Of a DNA stretch of 5,089 nt, positions 2,806-4,755 are shown piece by piece. This stretch comes from Candidatus Sumerlaeota bacterium. GTDB taxonomy: Bacteria; Sumerlaeota; Sumerlaeia; JAFGJS01. Location: NCBI GenBank assembly GCA_016928995.1, contig JAFGJS010000049.1, positions 1-5,089 of the forward strand, written 5' to 3'. The position numbers and the translations under genes were made by a program. A model generated the notes under the pieces. That model saw only the letters and a program-made list of their open reading frames with translations. It had not been told where the DNA came from and did not search any database. Positions within the stretch are counted from its first letter, which is position 1. The number at the start of each line of letters is the position of its first letter.

Positions 2806-3149
2806 TTATGATGCGATGTCTTTGCGCAGGAAAAGCGCCAGTGTTCCGAGGAGGATGACAATTACGCTTGCGATCAGGATGCAATTATCGGCCCAGTTGA
2901 TCGCGCCGGTGGAGAATACTTTTGTCGGATCGGCGTAATGGAAGGGAGTCAGCCAGGCGAGCCATTGCGCAACGTCCACGATGTTGAGGGCTTTGTCGAA
3001 GATGAAACTGAACAGGAGATACCCTGCGCCGGCGCTGTTTGGTCCGGGAAAGCCGAAGACCTCGCACGCTTCGATGCGCAGGTTCAAGTCCTCGACGCCG
3101 CGGCAAGCACGATAGAACTTCGTCAGCTGATTGGTTCAATGATGGACAT
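2806..3149 (-). pseudogene. Broken ABC exporter relic: ABC ATPase N-terminus joined to ABC-2 permease C-terminus
   Basis: Reading the minus strand from the ATG at 3149, the product begins M-S-I-I-E and then shifts frame at about 3135-3137, hitting TGA. One added base restores TNQLTKFY, then GVEDLNLRIEACEVFGF and GPNSAG. That is the usual N-terminus of an ABC-type ATPase up to Walker A (normally GPNGAGKT). Walker A is corrupted: G to S, and the lysine is gone. At about 3024-3033 it runs straight into permease-like sequence, with a hydrophobic YLLFSFIF, then WLAWLTPFHYADPTKVF, a last membrane helix and the ending LRKDIAS, as in ABC-2 permeases. Walker B, the signature motif and most of the permease are absent. 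The simplest reading is one deletion across adjacent ATPase and permease genes, followed by decay. A fragment from a TTG at 3087 stays open, but I do not think it is functional. Confidence 0.8.
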
Positions 3150-3343
3150 TCGCCTGAGATGTTCGTTGATTGATCCTGAATAATCAAGCGCACAGATGCT
3201 TCTATTGCTGCATTAATACCGGCCATGTTGATTGGTGCGCCTTGTTCTTGAATACCGCGGCCAGTTATTCAGCTTTTTTGGACGGTGGAATAGTAAGGCA
3301 ACATGCCTAACGTTCGGCATCAGCGGCATGGCAGCAGCGATGA

Positions 3344-3359
3344 CTGGATGTTTGTCCAG
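3344..3359 (-). other. Small hairpin after the microprotein stop
   Basis: CTGGA (3344-3348) pairs with TCCAG (3355-3359). On the minus strand it starts 10 bases after the TAA of the lysine-rich microprotein. An overlapping alternative, CCAG-GT-CTGG (3356-3365), competes with it. No T run follows, so a terminator role is doubtful. It is recorded as the only visible structure in the 220-base gap between the microprotein and the ABC relic, which otherwise shows nothing recognisable. Confidence 0.25.
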
Positions 3360-3369
3360 GTCTGGGCGA

Positions 3370-3474
3370 TTATTTCTTTTTTTCTTTTTTCAGTTGCCGT
3401 TTTTCCTTGAGGCTTAGTTTAGCCTTTTTCTGTTCTTCCTTTTTACCTTTGTCTTTCTTTCCTGATTCGCCCAT
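3370..3474 (-). CDS. Lysine-rich 34-residue microprotein, function unknown
   Basis: This short frame runs from ATG (3474-3472) to TAA (3372-3370). It starts MGESGKKDKGKKEEQ and ends LKEKRQLKKEKKK. Fifteen of its 34 residues are lysine, with one arginine, five glutamates and one aspartate, a net charge of about +10. There is no hydrophobic stretch, so it is cytoplasmic, probably a charged helix (LSLKEKRQLKKEKKK) after a flexible Gly/Lys start. An AAGGAGA site sits 7 bases upstream, strong support for real translation. From memory it resembles tiny unannotated lysine-rich proteins in several bacterial phyla, but I cannot name a family. The composition would suit binding to nucleic acid or ribosomes; that is a guess. 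It lies between the reductase and the ABC relic on the same strand. Confidence 0.72.
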   Translation of the reverse strand: MGESGKKDKGKKEEQKKAKLSLKEKRQLKKEKKK

Positions 3475-3481
3475 AGCTCTT

Positions 3482-3488
3482 TCTCCTT
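3482..3488 (-). promoter_or_regulatory. Shine-Dalgarno site of the lysine-rich microprotein
   Basis: On the minus strand the sequence is AAGGAGA, 7 bases before the ATG at 3474. The spacing and match to the 16S anti-SD are as good as those of the lyase and the reductase, and this decides in favour of a real small gene over low-complexity noise. Confidence 0.75.
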
Positions 3489-3535: not shown

Positions 3536-3565
3536 AAGCTAATCGTATTGGCCGTTATATGTCAA
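3536..3565 (-). promoter_or_regulatory. Possible sigma-70-type promoter for the microprotein
   Basis: On the minus strand a perfect TTGACA (-35, 3565-3560) is followed after 18 bases by TAGCTT (3541-3536), a poor -10 element. Transcription would begin about 50-55 bases before the microprotein ATG. The weak -10 makes this tentative. Confidence 0.3.
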
Positions 3566-3668: not shown

Positions 3669-4655
3669 TTACTGAACGAGCAGAATGTCGATTTGGTGCA
3701 TTTGTTCCTTGCTCAATGGACCGAATTGCATGGCGTTGATGTTTTCTTCGGCTTGCTTGACGGTTTTGAAGCCGGGAATGGGGATCGTGTTTTCGCTGCG
3801 GGCCCAGATCCAGGCGAGGGCGCCTTGCGCCAGGGTGCGGCCTTCGCTGGTGAGGATCTGGCGGATGGCGTCGAGCTTCCGCAGCCAGGCGGGATTGGGC
3901 TTGCCGCCTTTGATGCCTTCGTACCATTCGACGTTGCGGCGCACATCGTCGGCGGGGAAGCGCGTGCTTTCCTGGAACTTGCCGGTGAGCAGCCCCATGG
4001 CCAGCGGGCTGCGGTTGACGCTGGCCAGGTTGCGCTCTTCGCAGAGCGCGAGGATCTCCGCGTTGTAGCTGAAGACGTTCATGTGCTGCTGCACGGCGAT
4101 GCAGTGCGGGCCTTCGGCGAAGACCTTGACGCGCTCCAGCGAGTCGGTGCTCCAGGCGTAGCCGCGGATTTTGCCTTCTTCGACGAGCTGCTCGAGCGCA
4201 TCGCGCGTGGGCGCGGCTTTTTCCGGCGGGTAGCCGGAGAGATGGAATTGGTAGAGGTCGATGTAGTCGGTGTTGAGGCGGCGCAGGCTGGCTTCGAGCG
4301 CCTGGCGGGCATGTTCCGGGCTGCCGTCCTCGCCGGTCACGTGGCGCGTCGGGCTGTCGAACACGTTGCCGAATTTCGTCGCGATGACCACGCCGTCGCG
4401 GCGTCCGGCCAGCGCTTTGCCCAGCACTTCTTCCGAGTGGCCGGCGCCGTAGACGTCGCTGGTGTCGAAGAAATTCACGCCGAGTTCGAGGGCGCGATGG
4501 ATCGCGCGGATCGATTCGCCGTCGTCCACCGCGCTCCAGCCGACCGGGACGTTGCCGGGGCTGGTGAAGGGTCCGCCGATGGCCCAGCAGCCCAGGCCCA
4601 TGGCGCTGACCTGGATGCCGGAGCGTCCGAGTTGTCTGCTGAATGTATTGTTCAT
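3669..4655 (-). CDS. Aldo/keto reductase (NADPH-dependent oxidoreductase, AKR11/IolS-YhdN-like)
   Basis: The protein has 328 residues, normal for the family, and is a cytoplasmic TIM-barrel enzyme that reduces aldehydes or ketones with NAD(P)H. The full catalytic tetrad is visible: D64 and Y69 in FFDTSDVYG, K94 in ATKFG and H138 in YQFH. The cofactor-binding end is also present: IPIPGFK (291-297), then E303-E304-N305. SPLAMGLLTGKF is a further family hallmark. The start at 4655 was chosen because AGGAGGA lies 8 bases upstream and the conserved N-terminus (SRQLGRSGIQVSAMGLG) follows at once. An upstream in-frame ATG at 4754 would add 33 residues with no family resemblance. The substrate is unknown. 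A link to sugar metabolism or detoxification is common in this family but not shown here. It stands alone on the minus strand, 194 bases from the microprotein. Confidence 0.95.
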   Translation of the reverse strand: MNNTFSRQLGRSGIQVSAMGLGCWAIGGPFTSPGNVPVGWSAVDDGESIRAIHRALELGVNFFDTSDVYGAGHSEEVLGKALAGRRDGVVIATKFGNVFDSPTRHVTGEDGSPEHARQALEASLRRLNTDYIDLYQFHLSGYPPEKAAPTRDALEQLVEEGKIRGYAWSTDSLERVKVFAEGPHCIAVQQHMNVFSYNAEILALCEERNLASVNRSPLAMGLLTGKFQESTRFPADDVRRNVEWYEGIKGGKPNPAWLRKLDAIRQILTSEGRTLAQGALAWIWARSENTIPIPGFKTVKQAEENINAMQFGPLSKEQMHQIDILLVQ

Positions 4656-4663
4656 GCCGTTGT

Positions 4664-4670
4664 TCCTCCT
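4664..4670 (-). promoter_or_regulatory. Shine-Dalgarno site of the aldo/keto reductase
   Basis: On the minus strand AGGAGGA lies 8 bases before the ATG at 4655. This fixes the start and rules out the longer reading from 4754. Confidence 0.9.
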
Positions 4671-4671
4671 G

Positions 4672-4731
4672 ATTATAGTGATCACAAAAATTTGTCCGAA
4701 TGGGAAGAGCACACAGCCGAGGGCGGCTGTG
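4672..4731 (-). promoter_or_regulatory. Candidate control region of the reductase: TATAAT box, GTGATCAC palindrome, 8-bp hairpin
   Basis: On the minus strand a perfect TATAAT lies at 4677-4672. Immediately upstream is the 8-base palindrome GTGATCAC (4678-4685), overlapping an ACAAA-AA-TTTGT inverted repeat (4684-4695). Further up, CACAGCCG (4712-4719) pairs perfectly with CGGCTGTG (4724-4731) around a 4-base loop. If TATAAT were the -10, transcription would start at or inside the SD site and there is no good -35, so the true promoter may lie further upstream. In that case the hairpin would sit in the leader. The palindromes could be operator sites. Confidence 0.3.
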
Positions 4732-4755
4732 CCACATTCAAACGATGCGGACATA

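Follow-up and report, generated by a model that had tools for sequence, protein, structure and literature searches.

The question raised by this locus is whether a T-rich stretch, which looks like low-complexity DNA on the plus strand, conceals a gene on the minus strand and, if so, what kind of gene it could be. The window, i.e., the whole stretch of DNA analysed here, is one entire contig of 5,089 bases. On its minus strand, from 3474 to 3370, an ATG-to-TAA frame encodes the 34 residues MGESGKKDKGKKEEQKKAKLSLKEKRQLKKEKKK, of which 15 (44%) are lysine, giving a net charge of approximately +10. The initial annotation had described this frame, its length, its composition and the ribosome binding site AAGGAGA 7 bases before the ATG (3488-3482), and the sequence bears each of them out. 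The features considered here are as follows:

3370-3474, minus strand: lysine-rich microprotein gene, 34 residues, ATG to TAA (evidence: sequence, conserved family, codon selection)
3482-3488, minus strand: Shine-Dalgarno sequence AAGGAGA, 7 nt before the ATG
3352-3369, minus strand: trailer TCGCCCAGACCTGGACAA 3' of the stop codon, conserved and forming a short hairpin
3560-3565, minus strand: TTGACA hexamer, no -10 partner
3305-3311, minus strand: GTTAGGC, identical to the integron R' core half-site, 58 nt 3' of the stop codon, no R'' partner
3669-4754, minus strand: aldo/keto reductase (PF00248, Pfam E 2.7e-65), the upstream same-strand neighbour

A conserved reading frame in T-rich DNA

Approximately 90 relatives of the microprotein were found, with lengths of 34-42 residues, in some ten phyla, most of them sharing 65-80% identity with the window protein. 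A tblastn-type search of the class detected relatives in 5 of 39 genomes, the window's own genome counted, and a scan of named genomes recovered at least 28 microprotein loci. These span Sumerlaeota, Planctomycetota, Methylomirabilota (NC10), Pseudomonadota, Acidobacteriota and Aminicenantes, Lentisphaerota, deltaproteobacteria, Nitrospirota, Chloroflexota and one FCB MAG, while at least two of the carriers, delta proteobacterium NaphS2 and Botrimarina colliarenosi, are strain genomes rather than MAGs. The family consensus is approximately MGDKGKKDKGKREQQKKAQLTPKEKRKLKKEKKNK. M1, G2, D8, K9, E13, K16, R26, K29, and K32 are invariant across 32 family sequences, and about 17 residues are invariant or nearly so and are kept in relatives of several phyla. 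Most copies are preceded by an AGGAG-type element, typically GCAAGGAGAAACAGAT-ATG, and start with ATG or, rarely, GTG. The window trailer is also similar to the post-stop sequences TTGCCCAGTG and ATGCCCAGTGCTGTCCGG of relatives.

Frame, start codon and Shine-Dalgarno element are all kept across phyla, and the refutation set out in the initial annotation, a lack of conservation in these three, thus did not come about. The comparison of synonymous and non-synonymous change that it had proposed points to strong purifying selection. Among 35 copies the median pN was 0.167 against a saturated pS of 0.839, pN was below pS in 593 of 595 pairs, and mean entropy at codon positions 1, 2 and 3 was 0.42, 0.49, and 1.11 bits, respectively. 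That the frame arose by chance in low-complexity, T-rich DNA would account for the appearance of the plus strand; however, this reading is refuted by the conservation of the family, the codon-position bias, a pN far below pS and the retained Shine-Dalgarno element taken together, and we regard its probability as negligible. From these sequence comparisons it is near certain that the window ORF is a real protein-coding gene, and it shows plainly how a conserved gene can fall short of the usual length cut-offs and pass for low-complexity DNA.

A TTGACA box had been suggested as possible, and although the hexamer is present (3565-3560), its role as part of a promoter was rejected since no matching -10 hexamer lies downstream. 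Between 3280 and 3660 no sigma-70-like site was detected, against 0.7 expected in shuffles. AlphaFold2 predicts two helices, a weaker one at residues 3-16 and one at 22-33 (mean pLDDT approximately 85), the latter matching the charged helix that had been noticed in the C-terminal half. The turn between them carries an S/T/N/D-x-K-E pattern and may be read as a helix cap.

No relative of the family was found in Pfam, NCBIfam, PHROG, PADLOC or PDB, small ribosomal proteins included, the best values being 0.082 in Pfam (for one member), 0.21 in PHROG and 0.94 in PDB; judged by these sequence searches, it is not described in any library searched. A phage or plasmid origin was rejected after IMG/VR and the phage and plasmid collections returned no match. 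A wider actinobacterial family of the type 'KSLKEKRAxKKAK' was also considered; searching plasmids with a sequence of that type gave no hit, and we make no claim for it. Literature searches on integron microproteins, the peptide string and cold-shock cassettes returned nothing relevant. Small basic proteins associated with the ribosome or RNA include the bS22 / AURKAIP1-COX24 and bTHX types. Like the microprotein these are shorter than 45 residues, strongly basic, helical and encoded by a stand-alone gene, but they have no sequence match to it, and the microprotein is dominated by lysine rather than arginine. It also differs from core ribosomal proteins in being horizontally scattered.

Spread between phyla and carriage by integrons

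The occurrence of the family is patchy, at 2-13% of genomes per group. Carriers number 11 among 95 NC10 genomes and 34 among the 347 genomes of the class that includes a Sedimentisphaerales MAG; at phylum level they number 15 among 395 for the phylum of NaphS2 and 6 among 297 for that of an Aminicenantes MAG. Most carrier genomes have one copy. The copy in genome G045 shares 92.8% DNA identity with that of a Nitrospirota MAG over a stretch of 181 nt that takes in leader and trailer, and 90% over 141 nt with that of a Sumerlaeota genome. DNA identity of approximately 93% between phyla that extends into non-coding flanks argues for horizontal transfer, and it is very likely on these sequence grounds that the family moves horizontally between many bacterial phyla; errors in MAG binning might inflate individual transfer cases, but not the overall pattern. 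In one NC10 clade the microprotein has been retained vertically at a common locus. We are dealing with a microprotein gene under strong selection in approximately ten phyla and, very probably, moving between them.

Some relatives are carried in integrons. The ORF forms part of a cassette in several genomes from NC10, Chloroflexota and Desulfobacterota, where the attC comes directly after a single ORF as in known integron gene cassettes. At four loci (L063, L067, L110, and L154) the attC follows in the same orientation as the ORF, and its score of 17.4-18.6 exceeds the 15.6 that shuffles reached at most. At L065 the microprotein lies within a longer array of R' sites. Such cassettes differ from the window copy and from most other copies, which have no intact attC. 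In the attC scan no site with paired R''/R' and L''/L' arms was found near the window copy, and the window's genome, which is 92% complete, holds no integron integrase above the family cut-off (best TIGR02249 match 61 bits against 265). With only the GTTAGGC half-site and no intact attC, the window copy was rejected as an intact integron cassette and is not called one here; the half-site at 3305-3311 is no more than a decayed attC and may have arisen by chance.

A different arrangement occurs in a Sumerlaeota relative of the window's class (G003), where approximately eight copies of an ORF-carrying repeat of some 200 nt lie within 14 kb (L014, G003:C19, 1-14000). The copies share one orientation throughout and are interspersed with unrelated genes, among them a polysaccharide deacetylase, a CAAX protease and an HTH/Fic pair; some are shortened, and two of these carry an identical internal deletion of the ORF. 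The repeat ends are similar to short inverted repeats of the form GGGGACRGG...CCTGTCCCC. Directly after the CAAX-protease gene of the array lies an attC-like site (8445-8503 of L014, R'' GCCTAAC / R' GTTCGGC), which in the first attC scan scored 13.5, where shuffles gave no more than 10.5.

Neighbouring genes and a candidate role

The neighbours of most copies are unrelated. RRM genes, which are rare in the control (74 in 148 Mb), lie within 4 kb of six copies and always on the same strand, and RhlE-type DEAD-box helicases lie near three copies. For RRM genes 0.22 were expected within 4 kb (p approximately 1e-7, or 3e-6 with two related genomes counted once) and 0.08 within 1.5 kb, where 4 were seen, and for the helicases 0.06 were expected (p 3e-5), with the qualification that these p-values treat copies as independent and that the RNA hypothesis was formed on the same data that support it. 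A cold-shock-domain gene is found near one further locus. In a Pfam scan of the 148 nearest neighbours, Helicase_C (4), DEAD (3), and RRM_1 (3) ranked within the top six families. At L071 a helicase was substituted for two short doubtful ORFs, which raises the Helicase_C and DEAD counts by one each. At L139 and L144 an RRM gene is followed after approximately 90 nt by the microprotein and then by an intrinsic terminator, an order that looks like a two-gene operon. Adjacency to RRM or DEAD-box genes exceeds expectation in Phycisphaerae-class genomes and a few others, whereas a further Desulfobacterota sample gave 0 of 14, and overall the association is confined to about 10 loci out of some 80. 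No RNA-related neighbour of the window copy lies within its 5-kb contig.

The initial annotation had suggested a nucleic-acid or ribosome partner from composition, and for the nucleic-acid part the RRM and DEAD-box RNA helicase neighbours provide indirect support. Our tentative reading, for which we see a little under even odds, is that this basic 34-residue protein, a member of an undescribed mobile family, may serve as an RNA-binding accessory to RNA chaperones. Two lysine-rich helices with a conserved capping turn between them would bind RNA or an RNA-protein complex electrostatically, and the protein would assist RRM proteins and RhlE-type DEAD-box helicases, and perhaps proteins with a cold-shock domain as well. 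Its gene is self-contained, with its own Shine-Dalgarno sequence and, in several relatives, its own terminator, and very probably spreads as a single-gene cassette, at times in integrons. The microprotein differs from bacterial RRM proteins and RhlE-type helicases, the RNA chaperones that are its repeated neighbours, in lacking an RRM or helicase domain, and the association concerns some copies only. RNA binding, the chaperone role, a link to cold or stress and like behaviour of the window copy and its relatives are all things that we infer. A broader version, in which this lysine-rich family of approximately 35 residues is a portable RNA-chaperone cofactor able to join the RRM, RhlE or cold-shock machinery of hosts that are not related, and in which integrons are one of several routes by which the stand-alone cassette is passed on, we consider rather unlikely.

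Basic composition would equally suit DNA, the ribosome, polyphosphate or acidic proteins as partners, and RNA cannot be singled out from net charge alone. The gene could thus be real and mobile while its product is a nucleoid or DNA-compacting peptide, a binder of polyphosphate or acidic proteins, or a ribosome-bound factor, with the RRM and helicase genes merely hitch-hiking. The unrelated neighbours of most copies are consistent with this, as are the Desulfobacterota copies that adjoin B12-dependent radical SAM genes instead. However, six of the rare RRM genes stand close to copies on the same strand, and the two RRM pairs that resemble operons end in a terminator; a partner other than RNA is a real possibility, though we doubt it. 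That the gene is a selfish or addiction-type cassette gene persisting through its mobility, such as half of a toxin-antitoxin pair or an anti-defence function, seems improbable to us. Patchy spread across phyla, integron carriage and the repeat array by Fic/HTH genes in the Sumerlaeota relative would fit such a gene, but a conserved partner gene is absent, PADLOC gave no match and the phage families no convincing one, one NC10 clade retains the gene vertically at one locus, and the protein is hydrophilic without a membrane-active pattern.

If the link to RNA is true, the microprotein would be a transferable part of the RNA-chaperone machinery, an idea that the RRM-microprotein pairs make directly testable. 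The family is also a hint that, among the unexplained cassettes of integrons, some carry housekeeping-like microproteins, not resistance or toxin genes.

Several observations on the surroundings of the gene may be added. B12-binding radical SAM genes of the NPPLGLLTVAAMLP type, some of which contain DUF4070, recur near the microprotein, mainly in Desulfobacterota (L051, L064, L158, L160, L161, and L165; also L071, L123, and L134). No Rfam element or tRNA was found near microprotein copies. At L056 and L057, in one Nitrospirota MAG and one Aminicenantes MAG, a common tRNA-like 3' end (GGTTCAAATCC...CCA) directly follows the microprotein, and no tRNA was called there by ARAGORN or Rfam. In the window itself the microprotein is flanked on one side by the aldo/keto reductase, which by neighbour comparison is no recurrent neighbour of other copies, and on the other by a rhamnogalacturonan lyase. 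A 93-residue ORF with a membrane segment (2806-3087, minus strand) has no Pfam match and resembles the C-terminal fragment of a truncated permease. The lyase, of family 11 (459-2678), and the gene adjacent to it (1-316) encode products that end in a near-identical ricin-type lectin domain.
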